Shown one piece after another: positions 1,949-11,896 of a DNA stretch of 50,333 nucleotides; positions within the stretch are counted from its first letter, which is position 1; the number at the start of each line of letters is the position of its first letter. The stretch lies in contig NZ_FNCB01000017.1 in assembly GCF_900100855.1 (NCBI RefSeq), forward strand, positions 1 to 50,333, written 5' to 3'. The stretch is from Idiomarina zobellii (GTDB lineage: Bacteria; Pseudomonadota; Gammaproteobacteria; Enterobacterales; Alteromonadaceae). Made by a program: the position numbers and the translations under genes. The notes under the pieces were generated by a model. The model saw nothing but the letters and a program-made list of their open reading frames with translations, made no database searches and had not been told where the DNA came from.

Positions 1949-3526
1949 ATGACTAGAGATATCCATGATCACCGAATATTGATTTTAGACTTTGGCTCGC
2001 AGTATACACAGCTGATAGCCCGCCGTATTCGTGAAATAGGTGTTTACTGTGAGCTTTGGGCGTGGGACGTTGACGAAGCCGATATTCGGGATTTTAATCC
2101 GAAGGGCATTATTCTTTCTGGTGGTCCGGAAAGCGTCGCTGAAGAAGGCTCGCCGCGTGCGCCAGACTATGTATTCGAAGCCGGCGTGCCTGTGTTTGGT
2201 ATTTGCTACGGCATGCAAACGATGGCGCATCAATTAGGCGGCTCAGTGCAGTGCTCATTAGAGCGCGAGTTCGGTTACGCACAAATTGAACTGGTGGAAA
2301 AAAGCCCTCTGTTTGAAGCCATTGAAGATGCCGTCTCTGAGTCAGGTGCGCCTCTACTGGATGTTTGGATGAGTCACGGTGACAAGGTTGAAGCTATTCC
2401 TGAAGGCTTCCACACCGTCGCAAAAACGTCTTACTGCCCTTATGCAGCAATGGCGGACGAAGAGCGTCAATTTTATGGTGTTCAGTTTCACCCGGAAGTA
2501 ACACATACCCGCCAGGGCGAGCGTATGTTGGAGCACTTTGTCAGCGGTATTTGCGGCTGTGAAAAGCAATGGACACCGGCGAAGATTATTGATGACGCGG
2601 TAGAGCGTATTCGCGAACAAGTCGGTACTGACAAAGTCATTCTGGGCTTGTCGGGCGGTGTTGATTCATCGGTTACGGCAATGCTGTTGCACCGTGCCAT
2701 TGGCGACCAACTGACCTGTATTTTCGTAGATAACGGTTTGCTGCGCTTAAATGAAGCAGAGCAAGTGATGGAAATGTTCGGCGACCATTATGGCCTGAAC
2801 ATTCTGCCTATTGCCGCTGAAGATCGCTTCTTAGATGCGCTTAAAGGCGAAAATGACCCGGAGAAGAAGCGTAAAATTATCGGTAATACCTTCATTGAGA
2901 TTTTTGATGAAGAAGCCGGTAAGCTGACCGAAGTGGATTGGTTAGCACAGGGAACTATTTACCCTGACGTGATTGAGTCGGCGGGCTCGAAAACGGGTAA
3001 GGCGCACGTCATTAAGTCACACCATAATGTGGGCGGCTTGCCTGAAGATATGCGTTTGAAGCTGGTTGAGCCATTGCGTGAATTGTTTAAAGACGAGGTG
3101 CGCAAAATAGGTCTGGAGCTTGGCTTGCCGTATAACATGCTGTATCGCCATCCGTTCCCTGGGCCAGGCTTAGGCGTTCGTGTATTGGGCGAAATTAAGA
3201 AAGAGTACTGTGACTTGCTGCGTCGTGCTGATGCTATCTTCATTGAAGAGCTGCACAATGCAGACTGGTATCACAAAGTCAGCCAGGCATTTGCGGTATT
3301 CCTGCCGGTGCGTTCTGTGGGCGTTATGGGTGACCAGCGTAAGTATGACTGGGTTATTGCGATTCGTGCCGTTGAGACCATCGACTTCATGACGGCACGT
3401 TGGGCACACCTGCCTTATGAACTGTTGGAGAAAGTCTCTAACCGCATTATTAATGAAGTTAACGGCATCTCCCGTGTGACTTACGACATCTCTGGTAAGC
3501 CTCCCGCAACGATAGAGTGGGAATAG
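1949..3526 (+). CDS. guaA: GMP synthase (glutamine-hydrolysing)
   Basis: GuaA converts XMP to GMP using ATP and ammonia from glutamine. It has 525 residues, the normal size. The N-terminal class I amidotransferase domain (about 1-205) carries GICYGMQ with the nucleophile at Cys86, and His/Glu in the FHPEVTHT segment. The ATP-pyrophosphatase domain has the P-loop-like GLSGGVDSS near residue 232, and the C-terminal dimerisation domain ends KPPATIEWE. It is the second gene of a guaBA operon. Oddly, its TAG stop (3524-3526) already forms part of the left arm of a large hairpin element. Confidence 0.97.
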
Positions 3527-3657
3527 CTATTGACTGGCTGTCGCAGGGAACCTTCCGAAAGACGCCCGCAAGTACATCCCTGTGGGGCTTGAGAGCGCCG
3601 TCCATGGCGCTGCACACTTTCTCCAGATTTTCCTGCGACAGCGTTACGTCAATAGCT
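3525..3657 (-). repeat. structured hairpin element, copy 1 (reverse orientation)
   Basis: Outer arms AGCTATTGAC (3525-3534) with GTCAATAGCT (3648-3657), and GCTGTCGCAGG (3537-3547) with CCTGCGACAGC (3632-3642), pair perfectly across a small internal loop. The core (3561-3617) read on the minus strand follows the order GTGT, stem AGCGCC/GGCGCT around ATGGAC, TCAAGC, stem CCC/GGG, GCGTC. The same skeleton occurs at 5941-6110, 10647-10773 and 11733-11896. The hairpin begins at the guaA stop codon, so it may also terminate or protect the guaBA transcript. An open frame crossing it on the minus strand is not considered a gene. Confidence 0.8.
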
Positions 3658-3772
3658 GATACCTTCGACACTCTGGCATAACGTGCCTTAACACTCGTAA
3701 CGCTTGCAAGTGCCTCAACTGCCTTTTGAGCTCTCCCCCGACAGTTCTTCATTACTAGCGAATAAGTTATTT

Positions 3773-3829
3773 TGACAGTTATTCTTGTCATTTCTGTGTT
3801 TTTTACTATTATGACAAATATATTTGTCA
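3773..3829 (+). promoter_or_regulatory. hipBA-1 promoter with paired operators
   Basis: Two 18-bp palindromes share TGACA-N8-TGTCA: an imperfect one at 3773-3790 and a perfect one, TGACAAATATATTTGTCA, at 3812-3829. Their starts are 39 bases apart. A plausible promoter (TTGTCA 3785-3790, 16-base spacer, TATTAT 3807-3812) overlaps both, so HipB bound there would block RNA polymerase. Two operators over the promoter fit autoregulation as known for HipBA of E. coli. Confidence 0.7.
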
Positions 3830-3843
3830 AAAAACTATTTGTT

Positions 3844-4095
3844 ATGACTCCACGAAAAGAAATTGGTAAGCAGCTTCAGCAAGAGCGTAAGGCTCAAAAA
3901 ATGTCACAAACGGAAGCTGCGGAGAAGATTAAAAGTAATCGTCAAACTATTTCAGCAATTGAGAGAGGTGTTTACCTGGGCTCGATTGCGACGTTTGAAA
4001 GGTACCTAATGCTCTTTGGCTATTCGCTGGCCATTACGAAAACAAAAATGCCGACGTTTGAAGAGCTTGATGACTTATTCCCGATGGAGGACTGA
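3844..4095 (+). CDS. hipB: HipB-like XRE-family antitoxin (module 1)
   Basis: An 83-residue helix-turn-helix protein starting MTPRKEIGKQLQQERKAQ. Residues about 8-62 form an XRE domain (KMSQTEAAEKIKSNRQTISAIERG), and the tail ends with acidic and hydrophobic residues. The frame is open further upstream to 3772, but those codons run through the operator palindromes, so the ATG at 3844 is preferred. The hipA gene starts five bases after its stop. It is inferred to neutralise HipA and repress the operon through the two TGACA-N8-TGTCA sites. Confidence 0.85.
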   Translation: MTPRKEIGKQLQQERKAQKMSQTEAAEKIKSNRQTISAIERGVYLGSIATFERYLMLFGYSLAITKTKMPTFEELDDLFPMED

Positions 4096-4100
4096 ATAAA

Positions 4101-5312
4101 ATGGCTGATGAATTAGCTCAGTATCCATCGCGTATAAGAGAACTCGAGATATACCTGAACGACCAACTGGCGGGGCGGCTGGTTCATGGTGCTCAGTATA
4201 GCTTTAGCTACGAAAAAAACGCCTGTCCGGTGTCTCTTTCTATGCCCAACCGGCTGGATCCGTATTCGTCAGGAAAGTTACCACCAATTTTTACGATGAA
4301 CTTGCCGGAAGGTTTTGTGCGTCGATATATTGAGGAGCGATTAAGGCGCTATGCGATTGTAAACGACATGTATCTGTTAGCGCTGCAGGGGGATAACGGA
4401 ATTGGCGCTATTAATTATCGGAATAATGAGTTGCCGCAAAGACCTCTGGAGAAAACGTCTCTGCAAGATATTTTGTCTTGGGATAATTCAAAAGAGTTGT
4501 TATTTCCGCAGCTTCTTGAGCGTTACTATTTGCAAACAGCGATATCTGGAGTTCAACCAAAAGTTGTTGTTCCCTCAGAAAAAGCGACGTTAGTTTATCC
4601 GGATTTGATCATTAAAACCTCCGATGAAGAATTTCCTAAACTCACCGCCAATGAGTTTATCTGTATGTCTGCGGCTAAGTTTTGTGACTTAGAGACACCT
4701 GACTTTTGGTTGTCTGATGATAGGCAGAACTTTGTCATGAGACGCTTCGATATTAATGGTGATAAAAAATACGCAGTTGAGGATTTTTGTGTACTCACCA
4801 AAAGAGACTCGACTGACAAATATCGCTCAAGTTATGAGCAAGTTATGAAAGTGGTTAAATTATTTACGCAGAGCACAAAGCAGCTTAATAAGTTGTATCA
4901 GTACATTGTTTTTAATGTTCTGATTGGTAATGGGGATGCTCACCTTAAAAACTTTTCCATTTTTTACGATGTTGCGAATAACAACGATATTCGACTGACG
5001 CCTATTTACGATGTGACGCATACAATTATTTATCCGACCATAGATAACGATATGGCGCTTAAGTTGTATGGAAGCAAAGCCTTTCCATCGGCTTATTATT
5101 TAAGAAAGTTGGGTGAGGATTTTGGTATAGCGAAACCCCTTGAGCAAATAGAAGTGATGGCGGATAAGTTATCTGACTTTATTAATGATTTTTCGGACTG
5201 GGCTATTTTCCCTGAGCTAAAAGAGTCACTGGAGCAACATCTATCTCGTGTAATGGTATCCCAGCCAACCATTAAAGGCTTCCGGCATCATAAAAGACGA
5301 AAATATACCTAA
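4101..5312 (+). CDS. hipA: HipA-family serine/threonine kinase toxin (module 1, intact)
   Basis: A 403-residue HipA-fold kinase. Family members such as E. coli HipA phosphorylate glutamyl-tRNA synthetase and induce dormancy; the target here is unknown. Visible parts are the N-subdomain with NLPEGFVRRYIEERL, the glycine-rich segment SGVQPK (near 148), the ATP-site lysine in LIIKTS, the MRRFD segment, the catalytic loop GNGDAHLKNF with Asp279, and the metal-binding YDV with Asp304. Everything needed for kinase activity seems present. GGAGG at 4086-4090, inside the 3' end of hipB, serves the ATG. The sequence is clearly different from the two other HipA genes in the window, so these are not recent duplicates. 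Confidence 0.88.
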   Translation: MADELAQYPSRIRELEIYLNDQLAGRLVHGAQYSFSYEKNACPVSLSMPNRLDPYSSGKLPPIFTMNLPEGFVRRYIEERLRRYAIVNDMYLLALQGDNGIGAINYRNNELPQRPLEKTSLQDILSWDNSKELLFPQLLERYYLQTAISGVQPKVVVPSEKATLVYPDLIIKTSDEEFPKLTANEFICMSAAKFCDLETPDFWLSDDRQNFVMRRFDINGDKKYAVEDFCVLTKRDSTDKYRSSYEQVMKVVKLFTQSTKQLNKLYQYIVFNVLIGNGDAHLKNFSIFYDVANNNDIRLTPIYDVTHTIIYPTIDNDMALKLYGSKAFPSAYYLRKLGEDFGIAKPLEQIEVMADKLSDFINDFSDWAIFPELKESLEQHLSRVMVSQPTIKGFRHHKRRKYT

Positions 5313-5401
5313 CTTAGTTTTACCGAACTTTTACAGTGAGAAGCCTGTTGAAAAGCCTTTTAGGTGCGATAATAGAATTATTGTAACCAAGGAGGTAAGT
5401 C

Positions 5402-5926
5402 ATGAAAAAGTTCGTATTATCAACAGCGCTAATTGCAAGTGGTTCGCTTTTCTTCTCAGCAGCGAGCAATGCTGACAGTGTTAATTATATTAGCGGTGGT
5501 TTTAACGACTTTTACAACTCAGACTTTTATGTAGAAGGCTCAACGAGTATTGCCGACAACTGGGTTGGCGAAGTGCAATTTACCGACATGGGTGATTACT
5601 CACTTCGCGCTGGCGCTAAGTATTTTCTGGATATGGGTGCAGACCGCCAGTTCAACACTTTCTTGAAAGGTGGTGTTAGTCATTATGACTTTGGTAACAG
5701 CGATGACACTAGCGCTTATGCTGGTATCGGCGCTATGACCAAGTTAAGTCAGCAGACTACCGCAATTGTTGATGCGGGTTACGACTGGGGTTTAGACGGC
5801 TTTGCATCGGTTAGCGCACGTTTACGTTATGCGTTTACTGACCGCTTCTCAGCTGACGCGGGTTTCCGCGGTAACTTCAACAGCATCGACAACGAAGTTC
5901 ACTTAGGTGTTACTTACAGCTTCTAA
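5402..5926 (+). CDS. small outer-membrane beta-barrel protein
   Basis: A 174-residue exported protein preceded by a strong AAGGAGG ribosome site. The signal peptide (MKKFVLSTALIASGSLFFSAASNA, cut after about residue 24) is followed by alternating hydrophobic/polar strands with turns of Gly/Asp/Asn. It ends LGVTYSF, the terminal aromatic signature of outer-membrane barrels. About eight strands fit the length, as in OmpA/OmpW-type small barrels. Function is not recognised. It sits between hipBA-1 and a hairpin element, inside the region bracketed by two hairpins, although nothing in its sequence suggests a toxin-antitoxin role. Confidence 0.8.
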   Translation: MKKFVLSTALIASGSLFFSAASNADSVNYISGGFNDFYNSDFYVEGSTSIADNWVGEVQFTDMGDYSLRAGAKYFLDMGADRQFNTFLKGGVSHYDFGNSDDTSAYAGIGAMTKLSQQTTAIVDAGYDWGLDGFASVSARLRYAFTDRFSADAGFRGNFNSIDNEVHLGVTYSF

Positions 5927-5940
5927 GCGTTGATACAAGC

Positions 5941-6110
5941 ATTGAAAGGTAGGGAGAGTCGCTTGTGAGCGCAAAGAGTATGAAGCCCCTAATGACGGAG
6001 TGTCGAAGGCCACGGAAGGCCTTCGTCAAGCCCTCATGGATGAGCTTGTAGCGTCTCCGACATAAGGGGCTTTATGCTCAAGCGAAACAAGTGATTCCCC
6101 TACCTTGAAT
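5941..6110 (+). repeat. structured hairpin element, copy 2 (forward orientation)
   Basis: The outer arms, starting AAGGTAGGG (5946-5954) and ending CCCTACCTT, pair imperfectly over about 55 bases, including AAGCCCCT with AGGGGCTT. The core (6000-6065) reads GTGT, stem CGAAGGCC/GGCCTTCG around ACGGAA, TCAAGC, stem CTCAT/ATGAG around GG, and GCGTC. It fills the gap between two convergent genes, from 14 bases after one stop codon to the stop of the next, so it may act as a bidirectional terminator. Confidence 0.8.
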
Positions 6111-6859
6111 TAAAGCACCACCGTATTTTTATGCGGTGGTGTTTTTGTGAGTAGCTCTCGTAGCTGTGCTTCGTAACTGGGTTTTAGATGAGTCACCCAA
6201 AGCTCTTTGGGCTGTAGCTTTAAACTGGCTAAAGCTTCCCGGAGCAAGCTTGGTGTCATGTGTTTGGTTTTCTGTGCGACGTCCATGAGCTCATCGGGAA
6301 AAGCGCATTCCAGCATTAATGTATCAATGTCACCGAGTGCGTTGAGTTGCTGGGTTAAAACGCTGCCGGCAATGGTATCCGCACAAAAGACAAAGTGTTG
6401 GCCGTTGTTCTTCACGCTGTAACCGACGGTTGGCACGCTATGCTCCACTTCAAAAGCTTTAATGCTCATGTCATCAATATCCACGCAATGGCCGGGCTGA
6501 ATTTCTTCAAATTTTAAAATGGCTCCGGCACCTTCGGTCATGCTGCTGAACTCTGGCCATATGTCACCATTAAAAATATTGTCACGCAGTTTTGCCAGGG
6601 TATGCGGCAAAGCGTAAACCGTAACGGGTAAGTGCTCACTGTCGTATTGATTGCTTAAAAACGTGGGGAGTGCGGCAATGTGGTCCATATGGGAATGGGT
6701 CAAAAAGACATGACGCACTTGCCGCATTTGCGCCAGGCTTAAACGGTTTAAGCCGGTGCCGGCGTCAATAATGATGTTGGAGCGCAGCTGAATGCAGGTG
6801 GAACCATTTTTATTGTCGCCGCTCAAACCACCACTGCAACCTAACACTTGAATATTCAC
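6110..6859 (-). CDS. metallo-beta-lactamase-fold hydrolase, class II cyclic-nucleotide phosphodiesterase-like
   Basis: The protein carries the zinc motif HVFLTHSHMDHIAALP (HxHxDH), a following His in the VEHSVPTVGYSV segment, an Asp in FCADTIAG, and His in LWVTHLKPSYE. The order and spacing suit the class II 3',5'-cyclic-nucleotide phosphodiesterase branch, though other hydrolases share the fold, so the substrate is uncertain. The conserved part begins VNIQVLGCSGG. I chose GTG at 6859 (249 residues); GTG at 6868 is an alternative, and an ATG at 6961 would overlap the divergent gene at 6929. No signal peptide is evident. It converges with the gene at 5402 across a hairpin element. Confidence 0.78.
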   Translation of the reverse strand: MNIQVLGCSGGLSGDNKNGSTCIQLRSNIIIDAGTGLNRLSLAQMRQVRHVFLTHSHMDHIAALPTFLSNQYDSEHLPVTVYALPHTLAKLRDNIFNGDIWPEFSSMTEGAGAILKFEEIQPGHCVDIDDMSIKAFEVEHSVPTVGYSVKNNGQHFVFCADTIAGSVLTQQLNALGDIDTLMLECAFPDELMDVAQKTKHMTPSLLREALASLKLQPKELWVTHLKPSYEAQLRELLTKTPPHKNTVVL

Positions 6860-6928
6860 AAATGACACCCATCTTGGATTACACTGGGATGAAAGAGTAT
6901 CATACTTAAAAACAGCCGAGGAGGCGTC

Positions 6929-7588
6929 ATGCCCGAAGCCGACAATACACCTGCACAGCACAGCTCACCCATATTACCGCAACTCATTATTCTGACCGTC
7001 TTTTGGATTGGTTTACAGCTGGTTGCCAGTTGGGTTAAGCCGGGTTTTTCGCATATGAGTCAGTATATTAGCGAAATTAATGCCACCGGCACTCAGGCGG
7101 CAGGTGTTTTGGGTTGGGTCGGCTTTATTCCGCTGGGCATGATTGCGGCGGGTTTGCTGCTCACTGTACGCCCACACATACGAGTAAAAGGCGTTAGTCA
7201 GTTTGGTTGGTCATTATTGTTTTTCTATCCGCTGGCTTATATTGGCAGTGCGCTGGCGCCTTGCGACACCGGCTGTCCGGTAGACGGCTCAAGTTCGCAG
7301 GCGATACATAACGGTATTGCCGTTATCAGTTACTTTGGTTTTGCGTTGGGGGCATTGTTATTGGCGCTGACGCCGAAAACCACCTGGCCGGTTCGCGCGG
7401 CTTTTGTATTATTAGCGTTTATTGTTGCCTTAGGCTTCCTGTTGATGACTTCGCCGGAGCTGGCTGAGATTCGGGGCGCAGTACAACGTTATGTTGAAGT
7501 GGCGCAATTAATTGTCTTCTGGCTGCTACTGTGGCTGAAAGATTCGCAGGCCAATGGCGGTCAAACAACGGGAGCGCAGCATGAGTAA
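6929..7588 (+). CDS. DUF998-family membrane protein
   Basis: A 219-residue inner-membrane protein with six likely transmembrane helices (about residues 19-40, 58-80, 93-112, 125-147, 153-172 and 187-203). The first two loops (WVKPGFSHMSQYISEINATGT) and the CDTGCPVDG segment between helices 3 and 4 fit DUF998. The biochemical role is unknown. GAGGAGG lies just before the start. Its stop overlaps the copA start by eight bases, so the genes are translationally coupled. Whether the paired cysteines have any link with copper is open. Confidence 0.8.
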   Translation: MPEADNTPAQHSSPILPQLIILTVFWIGLQLVASWVKPGFSHMSQYISEINATGTQAAGVLGWVGFIPLGMIAAGLLLTVRPHIRVKGVSQFGWSLLFFYPLAYIGSALAPCDTGCPVDGSSSQAIHNGIAVISYFGFALGALLLALTPKTTWPVRAAFVLLAFIVALGFLLMTSPELAEIRGAVQRYVEVAQLIVFWLLLWLKDSQANGGQTTGAQHE

Positions 7589-9842
7589 ATCTGTTCGTTT
7601 AGGCATTCAGGGAATGAGTTGTGGGTCGTGCGCCGGTCGTGTGGACAAAGCGCTGAACGGATTAGAGGGTGTGGAAGCGTCGGTGAACCTGGCGTCGGAC
7701 AGCGCCGAAGTGACCTATGCTGACAAGCTATCCGTGGATGACTTGATTAAAGCGGTGCAGGACGCAGGCTACGATGCCCACGAAGTGGTTGATCGCGACA
7801 AACAAATGCGCGAACAGCGTGAGCAACAGGCAAAAGAAATGCGCACGTTAAAAGGCCAGTTATGGCTTTCTGCATTGCTGACGCTGCCGGTGTTTATACT
7901 GGCCATGGGCAACCATATGGTGCCGGTATTTTCCGAGTGGGTGCATAACTCACTGGGCTTACAGACCAGCTGGTGGATACAGTTAGTGCTTACTACGGTG
8001 GTATTAGCGGTTCCTGGCGCGCGTTTTTATAAGTTGGGTATGCCTGCTTTATTCCGTGGGGCGCCGGACATGAACTCCCTGGTGGCTTTGGGCGCTACCG
8101 CCGCCTGGGGTTACTCGGTCGTGGCAACAATAGTTCCCTCCTGGCTGCCCAGCGAGTCAGTGAACGTTTACTTCGAAGCTTCTGCGGTTATTGTCACGCT
8201 GATATTGGCGGGGCGCTTTATGGAAGCGCGTGCCAAAAGCCATACGTCCGATGCTATTCAGCGACTGATGAGTCTGCAAAGTAAAACCGCACGAGTCGTG
8301 CGGGACGGTGAGGTGACCGAAGTCGATATTGCTGAACTGGGTAAAGGTGATGAAATTGAAGTGCGTCCGGGCGAGCGTATTGCACTGGATGGCGAAGTGT
8401 CTTCCGGTGACAGTTATGTGAACGAAGCCATGATTACCGGCGAACCCGAGCCGGTACATAAAGAAAAAGGCGACAAAGTGGTCGGCGGTACGCTTAATGA
8501 AAAAGGCACGCTGCGGTTTAAGGTCACAGCGACCGGCGAAGGCACCGTGCTGGCGCAGATTATCCGTATGGTTGAGCAGGCTCAGGGCAGTAAATTGCCG
8601 ATTCAGGATACTGTGAACCGTATTACATTATGGTTTGTACCGGCGGTCATGCTGGTGGCGTTGCTAACCTTTGTGGTGTGGTACTTTGTGGCCAGTGAGT
8701 CAGCACTGACCTTTGCGCTGGTTAACGCGGTGGCGGTGCTAATTATTGCCTGCCCCTGCGCAATGGGGCTGGCAACGCCTACGTCTATTATGGTGGGTAC
8801 AGGTCGCGGTGCTGAAATGGGCGTACTGTTCCGTCAGGGCAGTGCTCTGCAGGCGTTGCAGCAGTCGAAAGGCGTTATTTTTGATAAAACCGGCACGCTG
8901 ACAGAAGGCAAACCGACCATTACCGACTGGCTTACCCTGAGTGACTTTGAGGAAAAAGAGGTACTGACATTAGCAGCCTCGGTTGAAGCTAAGTCAGAGC
9001 ACCCCACCGCAGAAGCTCTGGTCAACTACGCCAAAGAGCAGGACATTAAAGTGAGCGAACCCGACAGCTTTGAAGCCATTTCCGGCTTGGGTGCTACGGG
9101 TAAAGTCGATGGTAAAACGCTTTATATTGGTACCAGCGAGCTGATGCAGGACAACGGTATTGCGCTTGATAACGAACCTGATGACGCGAAAAGCTGGTCT
9201 GAAAGCGGCCGCACACCCATTTATGTGGCGGTCGATGGAAAGCTGGCTGCGGTATTTACTCAGGATGATCCTATTAAGTCCAGCGCCAAAGAATTGATTA
9301 AACGCTTGCATGACGACGGCCTGAAAACGGCAATGGTCACAGGAGATGCCGAGTCCACTGCAAAACGCATTGCGAAAGAACTGGGCATTGACGAGGTGGT
9401 GGCTAACGTTAAACCCGATGGCAAAGTGGATGCCGTAAAGCGCCTTAAGAAGGAGTGGGGTCAAGTCATATTTGTAGGGGACGGTATTAATGATGCGCCG
9501 GCATTGGCCTCTGCTGACGTGGGCTTTGCTATAGGCACGGGCACCGACGTGGCGATTGAATCCGCCGATGTGGTGCTGATGTCAGATAATCTGACCGTGG
9601 TGCAACAATCATTTGCGCTGTCGGAAGCGACTATGCGCAACATTCGTCAGAATTTATTCTGGGCGTTTGCTTATAATACTGCGCTGATTCCTGTCGCGGC
9701 GGGTGTACTGTATCCGTTTTTCGGGATTTTGCTGTCGCCGATGCTGGCGGCAGGTGCGATGGCGCTGTCCAGCGTCTTTGTCATAACTAACGCGCTGCGT
9801 CTTAAAACGGTAAGCCTGGGCGCACAGGCGGAAAAGGAATAA
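7581..9842 (+). CDS. copA: copper-exporting P1B-type ATPase
   Basis: A 753-residue P-type ATPase that would pump Cu(I) out of the cytoplasm. One N-terminal heavy-metal domain has GMSCGSCAGRV (Cys14, Cys17). The membrane domain carries the Cu(I) motif CPC at 391-393, then the phosphorylated Asp435 in DKTGTLTEG, TGEPEPV in the actuator domain, and GDGINDAPAL in the P domain. Other family members often have two metal-binding domains; here there is one. The ATG at 7581 is chosen because MSKSVRLGIQGMSC is the normal N-terminus; an in-frame ATG at 7554 lies deep in the previous gene. murI follows after six bases. Confidence 0.95.
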   Translation: MSKSVRLGIQGMSCGSCAGRVDKALNGLEGVEASVNLASDSAEVTYADKLSVDDLIKAVQDAGYDAHEVVDRDKQMREQREQQAKEMRTLKGQLWLSALLTLPVFILAMGNHMVPVFSEWVHNSLGLQTSWWIQLVLTTVVLAVPGARFYKLGMPALFRGAPDMNSLVALGATAAWGYSVVATIVPSWLPSESVNVYFEASAVIVTLILAGRFMEARAKSHTSDAIQRLMSLQSKTARVVRDGEVTEVDIAELGKGDEIEVRPGERIALDGEVSSGDSYVNEAMITGEPEPVHKEKGDKVVGGTLNEKGTLRFKVTATGEGTVLAQIIRMVEQAQGSKLPIQDTVNRITLWFVPAVMLVALLTFVVWYFVASESALTFALVNAVAVLIIACPCAMGLATPTSIMVGTGRGAEMGVLFRQGSALQALQQSKGVIFDKTGTLTEGKPTITDWLTLSDFEEKEVLTLAASVEAKSEHPTAEALVNYAKEQDIKVSEPDSFEAISGLGATGKVDGKTLYIGTSELMQDNGIALDNEPDDAKSWSESGRTPIYVAVDGKLAAVFTQDDPIKSSAKELIKRLHDDGLKTAMVTGDAESTAKRIAKELGIDEVVANVKPDGKVDAVKRLKKEWGQVIFVGDGINDAPALASADVGFAIGTGTDVAIESADVVLMSDNLTVVQQSFALSEATMRNIRQNLFWAFAYNTALIPVAAGVLYPFFGILLSPMLAAGAMALSSVFVITNALRLKTVSLGAQAEKE

Positions 9843-9848
9843 ACAGAC

Positions 9849-10595
9849 ATGAAAGTCGGAGTTTTTGACAGCGGTGTGGGTGGTTTAACGGTAGCTCGAT
9901 CGTTGCAGCAAAGCGGTTGTTTCAGCGAGCTGCTGTATTACGGAGACACCGCCCGAGTGCCTTACGGTAGCAAAGACAGCAATACGGTAACGCGCTACGC
10001 GCTGGAAGCTGTGGAGTTTTTTAACGGCGCCGATGTAGATTGCCTGGTAGTGGCCTGTAACACCGTGAGTGTGACCGCATTAGAGCAAATGCAAAAGTTC
10101 TCTAACAAGCCAGTTTACGGGGTGCTGGAGCCAGGTGTTATGGCATTGCAGCAACTGCAGGGTATTGATACCAGCGCCCGGGTACTGGTTATTGCTACGC
10201 GTTCAACCATAAATTCCGGTGCCTATCAGCAGCAGATACAAGCGTTGGGCTATAGTCAGGTAGACGCCATGCCTACGCCGCTGTTTGTGCCTATTGTCGA
10301 AGAAGAGCTTTACGACGGGCCGATACTGCAGGAAACCTTTAAGCATTATTTCAGCAAGCTTGAAAAGCCTGATGTGGTGCTTCTGGGCTGTACGCACTTT
10401 CCGCTGATAGCCGAGAGCATTTCCGACTACTTCAACGGCGCCAAAACCATCCATTCCGGCGAGGCCATGCTGGCCTGGCTAAAGCAACACCTGGACTTAA
10501 GCGCCCAGTTTGAAAGCACACCGCTGCACATCATCGCCACCGAAAACGTCGACGCCGTCAAACGCACCGCCACCCGCTGGGGCCTAAAACTTTAG
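9849..10595 (+). CDS. murI: glutamate racemase
   Basis: MurI interconverts L- and D-glutamate, supplying D-Glu for peptidoglycan. It has 248 residues. Both catalytic cysteines are present: Cys70 in VACNTVS and Cys181 in LGCTHFPL. The N-terminus VGVFDSGVGGLTV is diagnostic, with YYGDTARVPYG following. It appears to be the last gene of a DUF998-copA-murI transcription unit, which ties an essential cell-wall gene to a copper-export gene. The transcript end is probably the hairpin beginning 11 bases after the stop codon. Confidence 0.95.
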   Translation: MKVGVFDSGVGGLTVARSLQQSGCFSELLYYGDTARVPYGSKDSNTVTRYALEAVEFFNGADVDCLVVACNTVSVTALEQMQKFSNKPVYGVLEPGVMALQQLQGIDTSARVLVIATRSTINSGAYQQQIQALGYSQVDAMPTPLFVPIVEEELYDGPILQETFKHYFSKLEKPDVVLLGCTHFPLIAESISDYFNGAKTIHSGEAMLAWLKQHLDLSAQFESTPLHIIATENVDAVKRTATRWGLKL

Positions 10596-10605
10596 CCTGG
10601 ACCCA

Positions 10606-10874
10606 CGTAGCCTGACATTTATGTCAGGTGAGATATGGAGGACAACGCGAGTGCTGCGGTTATCAGTGGGGCTTTGGAGGACGCCCGCGAGTACGTCCCT
10701 GTAGGGCTTGAGCAGCGCCATCCATGGCGCTGCACACCTCCAAAGCCCCACTGGTAACCCTTGAAGCACTCGCTATTCCGCGTTTATAACCGATACGTAG
10801 CCTCTGATGTACTAAGTCAAAGGCTCTCTTTGCAACGCACGCGGTATCCCACCTGACATAAATATCATGCTACG
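10606..10874. repeat. nested inverted repeat enclosing hairpin copy 3
   Basis: A 24-base segment at 10606-10629 matches the reverse complement of 10851-10874 at 22 of 24 positions. The left copy is itself a hairpin, CCTGACAT-TT-ATGTCAGG (10611-10628), just after murI. Hairpin element copy 3 lies inside. A similar CCTGACGT hairpin ends the RND operon at 19628. This accounts for most of the 447-base gap between murI and higB. Confidence 0.6.
10647..10773 (-). repeat. structured hairpin element, copy 3 (reverse orientation)
   Basis: The outer arms 10647-10680 and 10737-10773 pair almost perfectly over about 34 bases (GCGAGTGCT with AGCACTCGC; GTGGGGCTTTGGAGG with CCTCCAAAGCCCCAC). The core on the minus strand is GTGT, stem GCAGCGCC/GGCGCTGC around ATGGAT, TCAAGC, stem CCCT/AGGG, GCGTC. 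Core sequence is nearly identical to copy 1, yet the arms are unrelated in sequence, so pairing rather than sequence is kept. Confidence 0.8.
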
Positions 10875-10965
10875 CCTCTAGCATATTAATTCTTATGCCT
10901 CTTTAATCCTTCTCTTATTTTCTTCTTGTGAAATGTAGCTACTCTCAATAGATAAAAAGGTTTAT

Positions 10966-11019
10966 TTCCCGTATTGGGAATTTTATTGACAAAACTTCTT
11001 TTTTTCCCATAATGGGAAA
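10966..11019 (+). promoter_or_regulatory. higBA promoter with paired operators
   Basis: Two palindromes share TTCCC-N5-GGGAA, at 10966-10980 and 11004-11018; the second extends to TTTCCCAT-A-ATGGGAAA (11003-11019). Their starts are 38 bases apart. TTGACA (10986-10991) and CATAAT (11008-11013), 16 bases apart, form a promoter whose -10 lies inside the second operator. HigA is the likely repressor. Confidence 0.7.
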
Positions 11020-11042
11020 TTAGGTTAGGGATAACTACGTTC

Positions 11043-11342
11043 ATGAGAATTATATCAAGGGCAACTCTTCGCGAGTTTTGGGAAAAGCCTAGCTACAGGG
11101 ATGCAGAGCAACCTTTAAAAGCGTGGTTCGATGAAGCTCGATATGCGTCATGGGAAAAGCCCCAGGATATAAAAGAGCAATACCGGCATGCGAGTTTTAT
11201 AGCTAATAATCGGGTTGTGTTTAATATCCACGGTAACAAGTACCGGCTTGTTGTCGCGATGAAGTATGAGTTCTCGATGATTTACATTCGTTTCGTTGGT
11301 ACGCATAAGCAATACGACGCAATTGATGCAGAAACAATTTAG
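11043..11342 (+). CDS. higB: HigB-type mRNA interferase toxin
   Basis: A 99-residue basic protein matching the HigB toxin family: MRIISRATLREFWEKP, a central AEQPLKAWFDEARYASWEKPQDI segment, then VVFNIHGNKYRLVVAMKY and a C-terminal YIRFVGTHKQYDAID. Members of this branch are RelE-fold ribonucleases that cut mRNA at the ribosome. The toxin gene comes first, as is usual for higBA. The antitoxin gene begins 11 bases after its stop. Confidence 0.88.
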   Translation: MRIISRATLREFWEKPSYRDAEQPLKAWFDEARYASWEKPQDIKEQYRHASFIANNRVVFNIHGNKYRLVVAMKYEFSMIYIRFVGTHKQYDAIDAETI

Positions 11343-11352
11343 AGGTGAGGGT

Positions 11353-11730
11353 ATGACTATAAAGCCCATAAAAACAGCTGAGGATCATCAGCGTGCACTG
11401 GCTCGTATTGATGAGCTTTGGGATGCTGAACCCAACACAGAAGCGGCTGATGAACTTGATATTCTGGTGACTTTGATCGAAGCGTATGAAGAAGCGAAGT
11501 ATAAAATCGATGCGCCCGATCCTGTGGAAGCGATTAAATTCAGAATGGATCAGGAGGGCCTGAGAGATTCTGACTTGGTGCCATTTTTAGGTCAGAGGAG
11601 TCGGGTTAGTGAGGTTTTAAATCGGAAACGGCGTTTAACGCTGCCTATGATTCGACGCCTTCATAGCGGCTTACATATACCTCTGGAATGCCTGGTTATG
11701 GATTACGAACTAGATCGAACTGAAGCTTGA
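11353..11730 (+). CDS. higA: HigA-type antitoxin
   Basis: A 125-residue protein starting MTIKPIKTAEDHQRALARI, with an N-terminal toxin-binding region (about 1-60) rich in acidic residues and a C-terminal helix-turn-helix domain (about 65-115, DLVPFLGQRSRVSEVLNRKRRLTLPMIRRL). This is the order seen in HigA of the E. coli type. AGGTGAGGG precedes the ATG at 11353. Longer in-frame starts lie inside higB and are not needed. It should bind the two TTCCC-N5-GGGAA operators upstream of higB. Confidence 0.88.
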   Translation: MTIKPIKTAEDHQRALARIDELWDAEPNTEAADELDILVTLIEAYEEAKYKIDAPDPVEAIKFRMDQEGLRDSDLVPFLGQRSRVSEVLNRKRRLTLPMIRRLHSGLHIPLECLVMDYELDRTEA

Positions 11731-11732
11731 TG

Positions 11733-11896
11733 AGCGGTTGTTAAGGCGCATGTAAGCGTTACGAGTGTTGAAGGGCTTTATGTCAGAGTGTCGAAGGCCA
11801 TGGATGGCCTTCGTCAAGCGTTCATGGATGAACTTGCAGCGTCTCTGGCATAAAGCCCTTCAACGCTCCAGCGAAACATGCGCCTTAACAGCCGCT
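11733..11896 (+). repeat. structured hairpin element, copy 4 (forward orientation)
   Basis: The element starts three bases after the higA stop. The outer arms pair over about 55 bases, including GTTAAGGCGCATGT with ACATGCGCCTTAAC and GTTGAAGGGCTTTATG with CATAAAGCCCTTCAAC. The core (11788-11853) is GTGT, stem CGAAGGCC/GGCCTTCG around ATGGAT, TCAAGC, stem GTTCAT/ATGAAC around GG, GCGTC. Core sequence is close to copy 2; arms share only short patches such as AGCGAAAC. Confidence 0.8.

Follow-up and report, generated by a model that had tools for sequence, protein, structure and literature searches.

The repeat known as YPAL or RU-2 is a published 168-nt element of Yersinia, the sequence of which is printed in the accessible part of PMC2759123. 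It is described as abundant in most Yersinia in the available text of PMC2847712, and the accessible portion of a review presents it as a mobile element that is targeted to or beside dyad symmetry and can affect upstream transcripts (PMC2229807). The regulator CsrA has the SELEX consensus RUACARGGAUGU, follows a rule by which the GGA lies in a loop, and bridges sites 10–63 nt apart, as given in the available text of PMC7652899. CsrA binding of one Rfam family, TwoAYGGAY, has already been proposed and its CsrA motif noted (PMC4333381, available in part). In the literature searched, which took in few subscription papers and other sources in part, YPAL was linked neither to CsrA nor to TwoAYGGAY. 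Here we describe a relative of YPAL/RU-2 in a 50,333-nt stretch of the Idiomarina zobellii genome (contig NZ_FNCB01000017.1, positions 1 to 50,333; hereafter the window). This palindromic repeat is dispersed, carries no genes and occurs in many Gammaproteobacteria; YPAL/RU-2 of Yersinia and Pectobacterium is its homologue. New here are the observation that both of its inner hairpins carry ANGGAN loops 22–25 nt apart, which is the CsrA/RsmA site pattern, and the naming of the strand that folds.

Repeat copies in the window

An earlier note on this DNA, made from the sequence alone, had listed four copies of a structured hairpin element, and all four were found where it had placed them. A half copy, missing from its list, adds a fifth feature:

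3525–3657, minus strand: B-type copy, core 3561–3617, 65.4 bits with covariance model R1
3662–3719, minus strand: half A-type copy directly next to the B-type copy at 3525–3657, made up of the GTGT-side arm and the 5' half of stem 1
5941–6110, plus strand: A-type copy, core 6000–6055, 98.8 bits with R1
10640–10782, minus strand: B-type copy, core 10680–10737, 93.5 bits with R1
11733–11896, plus strand: A-type copy, core 11788–11843, 104.8 bits with R1

Read in the same orientation, the four copies share in register the skeleton that had been proposed for them: GTGT, stem 1, an ATGGAT-type loop, stem 1', TCAAGC, stem 2 and GCGTC. The two types of stem 1 also stand. Type A has CGAAGGCC (5984–6071 and 11772–11859, plus strand) and type B has GCAGCGCC (3545–3633 and 10664–10753, minus strand). 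The CCC/GGG stem 2 that had been assigned to type B does not, and is here read as TAC-AGGGAY-GTA. In each copy, two hairpins with ANGGAN loops top a long outer stem. These loops are ATGGAC (3600–3605) and AGGGAT (3576–3581, with only two flanking pairs) in the 3525–3657 copy, ACGGAA (6012–6017) and ATGGAT (6036–6041) in the 5941–6110 copy, ATGGAT (10720–10725) and AGGGAC (10695–10700) in the 10640–10782 copy, and ATGGAT at both 11800–11805 and 11824–11829 in the 11733–11896 copy. The arms differ among loci; in 57 copies the median length over which they pair is 52 positions and the greatest is 72.

When each copy was folded as DNA and compared with 200 dinucleotide shuffles, none of the shuffles folded as well: z was −10.5 for 11760–11870, −6.8 for 5975–6085, −10.5 for 10647–10773 and −4.6 for 3525–3657. 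The half copy, which is 83% complementary to 11740–11797, has no fold of its own (z 0.04 against shuffles for 3650–3730). In the copies tried, stem 1 is present in the minimum-energy RNA folds; the second hairpin varies and in the window copies mostly takes other registers, without a hexaloop.

Relationship to YPAL/RU-2 and to Rfam families

The Yersinia pestis RU-2/YPAL sequence of PMC2759123 was used as a BLASTN query against the loci collected in this analysis. It matched five Pectobacterium loci at 81–85% identity over 71–108 nt (E down to 2e-23), Idiomarina relatives at up to 88% over 51 nt (E 2.4e-10), Marinobacter loci, and copies elsewhere in the I. zobellii genome (82.6% over 69 nt at locus L056, E 8e-10; 86% over 51 nt at L054). 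No window copy was among the 25 matches listed. RU-2 itself carries loops AAGGAT and ATGGAT, 24 nt apart. Of the features by which YPAL/RU-2 is recognised, a palindrome of ∼130–168 bp with internal inverted repeats that is intergenic and multi-copy is present here. Others are insertion at or beside dyad symmetry and a target site duplication of 3–26 bp; the sites compared included no clean empty one and no target in its state before insertion.

At gathering score, Rfam has no match in the window. A permissive scan places RF01731 (TwoAYGGAY) at 10651–10766, below threshold (29 bits, E 0.28; gathering 43). When six genomes were searched with RF01731, 37 matches in five of them reached E ≤0.01 and none in any of the six exceeded the cut-off, the best scoring 36.9 bits in the I. 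zobellii genome and 42.4 overall, in a Marinobacter. RF02770 (Ysr224) gave 44 matches in all six, of which seven, all in a Pectobacterium, exceeded the cut-off. An E. coli control also gives RF02770 matches below the cut-off, and those in the I. zobellii genome reach 27.8–32.8 bits against a gathering score of 70. Two RF01731 and three RF02770 matches were obtained in that genome, and every one lies on an R1 copy, the two families on opposite strands; one copy is matched by both.

Because of the RU-2 BLASTN matches, the common loops and the Rfam scores below gathering, we consider it very probable that the window copies belong to a YPAL/RU-2 superfamily and are not members of RF01731 or RF02770 as thresholded. 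The earlier note had counted a match to a described repeat family against its own proposal, and YPAL/RU-2 is such a match.

Covariation and the strand that folds

Ten copies from the I. zobellii genome, the four in the window and six others, were aligned. Both sides change in 20 of 29 tested pairs. The expectation that the outer arms differ yet pair was borne out by the 16-pair outer helix, in which 15 pairs change on both sides and 95% of cells are paired. Overall, 92.0% of cells pair, against a mean of 65.5% in shuffled alignments (0/500 as high) and 38–45% with slid partners. Stem 2 in the register first proposed pairs in 70% of cells, and B copies fit it badly. Pairing reached 96.1% among 72 matches from six Idiomarina genomes (slid, 38–47%) and 91.0% among 100 matches from 69 loci outside Idiomarina (slid, 37–47%); both alignments were fitted to the model, and their pairing counts therefore lean towards it. 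Among four full orthologous copies beside guaA, three arm pairs change on both sides, two of them remaining paired in all four sequences and the third being broken in one; four pairs vary on one side, and 35 of 45 are invariant.

The mismatches that remain in the arms are informative on strand. A strand-neutral aligner was used to pair the arms of 142 distinct copies, each of which forms 10 or more of the 16 inner arm pairs. Read on the ANGGAN strand, representatives at 75% identity hold G.T and A.C mismatches in numbers of 50 v 17 (23 Idiomarina) and 46 v 8 (74 others), and at 60% identity of 26 v 11 (11 Idiomarina, p 0.02) and 34 v 7 (51 others). The pooled count for the 97 representatives is 96 v 25; none of 20,000 sign flips by element is as extreme, and base composition predicts a ratio of 1.08. 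A.G exceeds C.T (68 v 16) and G.G exceeds C.C (25 v 8). The G.T excess is found in both orientations to the nearest gene 3' end (antisense 62 v 22, sense 28 v 4). GTAG-tagged REP hairpins, taken as a mismatch control, held two G.T and one A.C in 50 hairpins, too few to compare. The excess of G.T over A.C therefore names the ANGGAN strand as that on which the ability to fold is preserved.

The covariation, the double changes at guaA and the strand-naming mismatch bias together support selection on the branched fold, as the earlier note had argued. Its contrast with simple repeat copying fails, because the family is also a dispersed repeat that matches the described YPAL/RU-2.

Paired ANGGAN loops

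Of the 72 Idiomarina R1 matches (21 sources, six genomes), 69 reach a length of 80 nt or more, and 63 of them are distinct. An ANGGAN site was counted when it had at least three flanking pairs, anywhere in the match, so that a few matches may owe one site to an arm. Two or more such hairpins occur in 55 of the 63, compared with 2/63 on the other strand and 0/1260 in shuffles. The 100 matches from outside Idiomarina include 93 distinct ones; a pattern that itself holds such loop letters had been used to select 69 of the 100. Two loops are present in 89 of the 93 and in 24 of the 28 distinct matches that were not so selected. When the count is confined to the core region, 143 of the 63 + 93 distinct copies have exactly two sites, always 22–25 nt apart, a spacing that falls within the 10–63 nt over which CsrA bridges. 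UACARGGAYGU, near the SELEX consensus, is found in 22/63 Idiomarina matches and in 4/28 of the unselected others.

Distribution and genomic surroundings

The search for further copies with a covariance model, which had been suggested for the family, was productive: R1 has 24 matches in the 2.58-Mb I. zobellii genome and matches in 26 of 60 genomes, this one included (14/19 Idiomarina and 12/41 beyond the genus). Stretches upstream of the malic enzyme gene and at guaA sites gave 21 R1 matches over both sets (36 loci). A letter-pattern scan of named genomes found at least 120 stretches, the 80 listed including some from Marinobacter, Microbulbifer, Vreelandella, Billgrantia, Pectobacterium and Idiomarina. 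Plasmids held no type A or B match at E 0.01 in a search that did not extend to phages or E. coli genomes.

Gaps were classed from crude calls of open reading frames (ORFs) of at least 100 aa with both neighbours within 600 nt, orthologues being counted repeatedly. For Idiomarina elements the gaps are convergent in 42 cases, tandem in 23 and divergent in none (0/65), and for the others convergent in 23, tandem in 32 and divergent in three (3/58). In the window, the first bases of the 3525–3657 copy overlap the guaA stop codon, and the 5941–6110 copy stops at the stop codon of a minus-strand gene (6110–6961).

The 320 nt after guaA were compared in each of 19 Idiomarina genomes. A B copy follows guaA in I. 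zobellii, G005, G007 and G017; G002 has an A copy inside outermost arms common with the B copy of the others; G008 and G016 have half a B copy, and the other 12 genomes have no copy in this interval. The R1 matches at these sites bear out the full copies. At another site, an A copy of L066 is inverted relative to L054 and L061. A copy pair of L062, L055 and L069 is missing in L071, which retains part of an arm. Inverted pairs also span gene-free gaps of about 85–125 bp, and alternating BIME-like arrays occur in G027. Copies nest in or replace one another and adjoin gene 3' ends. The half copies are suggestive, but only suggestive, of cleavage at the tip of stem 1.

A recurring mobility protein, which the earlier note had envisaged, did not emerge from the search, which covered Y1_Tnp/RAYT (no association) and, by eye, the ORFs of 15 stretches. 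Genes that we take to be for IS110-like transposases lie beside or inside hairpins at L055 (1800–2050) and L063 (2322–3353), one of them apparently inserted in the stem-2 region. The 174-aa protein encoded at window positions 5402–5926 has a start that resembles a signal peptide and matches no Pfam family; by eye, its start or end follows guaA in several relatives.

Proposed explanation and alternatives

The reading that we favour, by a little, is that of a mobile palindrome, non-autonomous and seated at gene 3' ends, with a predicted bivalent CsrA-binding RNA as its conserved core. The fold of the ANGGAN strand would be kept as RNA, and the pair of hairpins would present a bivalent site for the dimeric regulator CsrA/RsmA. 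Transcribed copies might then act as CsrA-binding elements or decoys (sponges) in 3' untranslated regions (3'-UTRs), and copies would be moved by an activity supplied in trans. Function as a CsrA-binding RNA, judged from sequence, is likely, at about an even chance. RNA is favoured because of the loop pattern and not by the mismatch test alone.

Several observations weigh against this reading. Eight of the 63 Idiomarina matches lack the two loops, three weak reverse-strand matches having none and five, among them the window copy at 3525, having one. The exact RUACARGGAUGU occurs in 0/63 Idiomarina matches and 0/28 unselected others, and its presence in 48/93 non-Idiomarina copies is forced by the selecting pattern. 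The second loop does not appear as a hexaloop hairpin in the minimum-energy folds of the window copies. A CsrA match is present in all 26 genomes with copies; since CsrA is found in 59 of the 60 genomes, its presence says little. As to strand, T.T and A.A run the other way (18 v 32), and with the inner 16 pairs only, distant copies of known orientation are unbiased (5 v 4, 2 v 3), the bias emerging with the full arms. In single-stranded DNA as well as in RNA, the milder mismatches are G.T and A.G, so the bias names the strand and not RNA as such. Finally, 39 of the 42 convergent-gap Idiomarina copies are antisense to the gene with the nearest 3' end, the own transcript of which would therefore carry complementary loops.

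A pure DNA element, in which a transposase recognises the ANGGAN strand as folded single-stranded DNA with the loops as contact points and no RNA function exists, is the alternative that survives best, although we think it rather unlikely. It would account for the dispersed, mosaic copies and inverted pairs, for the A copy of G002 within the arms that elsewhere hold a B copy, and for the pair missing in L071, and it too predicts the strand bias. It gives no evident reason why two different hairpins should keep the CsrA pattern, ANGGAN in which the second and last letters are free, and no enzyme is known for it, no search having been made beyond Y1_Tnp. It is improbable that the hairpins are protective or terminator-like 3'-UTR structures retained for the sake of the adjacent gene. 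In favour, divergent gaps rarely or never hold copies, and five guaA sites without a copy (G009, G010, G012, G013 and G018) have by eye an apparent GC hairpin and T-run. Against it, inspection by eye finds no T-run after the window hairpins, and in Idiomarina the strand that is kept runs antisense to most of the neighbouring genes.

Mobilisation by RAYT (Y1 tyrosine transposase), as for REP/REPIN-type repeats, recommends itself by the inverted pairs with short gaps and the arrays of G027, but was rejected as very improbable: the I. zobellii genome has no PF01797 (Y1_Tnp) match, Y1_Tnp occurs in 15/26 genomes with copies and 19/34 without, which is no association, there is no GTAG tag, and the core measures 56–58 nt against the 20–40 bp given for REPs in the available text of PMC3733652. 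A GTAG-tagged REP-like hairpin pair (GTAGCCTGACAT...ATGTCAGG) does bracket the second B copy in inverted orientation (10606–10635 and 10845–10874), and 50 GTAG-tagged hairpins were seen in the Idiomarina loci read, though the I. zobellii genome lacks a Y1_Tnp match.

That the B(−) and A(+) hairpins are the ends of mobile toxin-antitoxin cassettes is similarly hard to credit: both window pairs do enclose such genes (HipBA-like, PF01381 and PF07804, 3772–5312; HigB-like, PF09907, with a partner lacking a Pfam match, 11043–11730), and one conserved locus has what is presumably a Phd/RelE-like pair between hairpins, but this reading was dropped because orthologous guaA sites separate hairpin from genes. 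Within the 320 nt, G005, G007 and G017 have the guaA hairpin and then the next gene without hipBA, and a hipB-like start accompanies half a hairpin in G008 and G016 and none in G015. Moreover, in the first window pair each hairpin lies against the stop codon of a different gene, and the same hairpins pair over the gene-free gaps mentioned above. The hipBA genes beside guaA are present or absent depending on species. A second pair, which we assume to be HipBA-like, lies directly beside a B hairpin at L054 (1858–3554); L061 and L066 have none at that site.

Comparison with known systems

A wider proposal, which we put forward tentatively, is that of one transposable family over Gammaproteobacteria with a single conserved payload, a putative bivalent CsrA/RsmA-binding RNA. 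Each insertion would add a CsrA site or decoy, total copy number would tune the Csr system, and YPAL, the gammaproteobacterial TwoAYGGAY-like elements and Ysr224 would be one thing. It would join a mobile repeat of Yersinia, a candidate structured RNA and an opposite-strand Yersinia small RNA family, and it names the folding strand. The family itself is already known, the present element being a marine relative of the Yersinia repeat that may spread CsrA docking sites around genomes; if CsrA binds both ANGGAN loops, a selfish repeat distributes the binding sites of a global regulator.

GTAG and CGTC REPs resemble the repeat as palindromes near gene 3' ends that form dimers; it is larger than they are, branched, and without the GTAG tag or the CGTC stem, loop and tail format given in the accessible part of PMC3733652. 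CGTC-tagged REPs, suggested by the GCGTC close, were dropped on that description. The available text on CsrA-related small RNAs of Alcanivorax (PMC9788540) shows no sign of the same element. RF01731, on the same strand, also has an outer stem, a pair of hairpins with A-GGA loops and a GCGUC close; it differs in being typed by Rfam as a cis-regulatory RNA, and all its matches here lie below gathering. RF02770 too is an element of this kind, read from the other strand. With YPAL/RU-2 the likeness extends to stem 1 with its ANGGAN loop, TCRAGC, TAC-hexaloop-GTA, the GGCGTC close, long imperfect outer arms and an intergenic, multi-copy habit, whereas Idiomarina copies are of two types, often paired in inverted orientation, with locus-specific arms. 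CsrA sponge RNAs of the CsrB/RsmZ type likewise have GGA hairpins at bridging distance; the repeat, in contrast, has two sites per copy and many dispersed copies.

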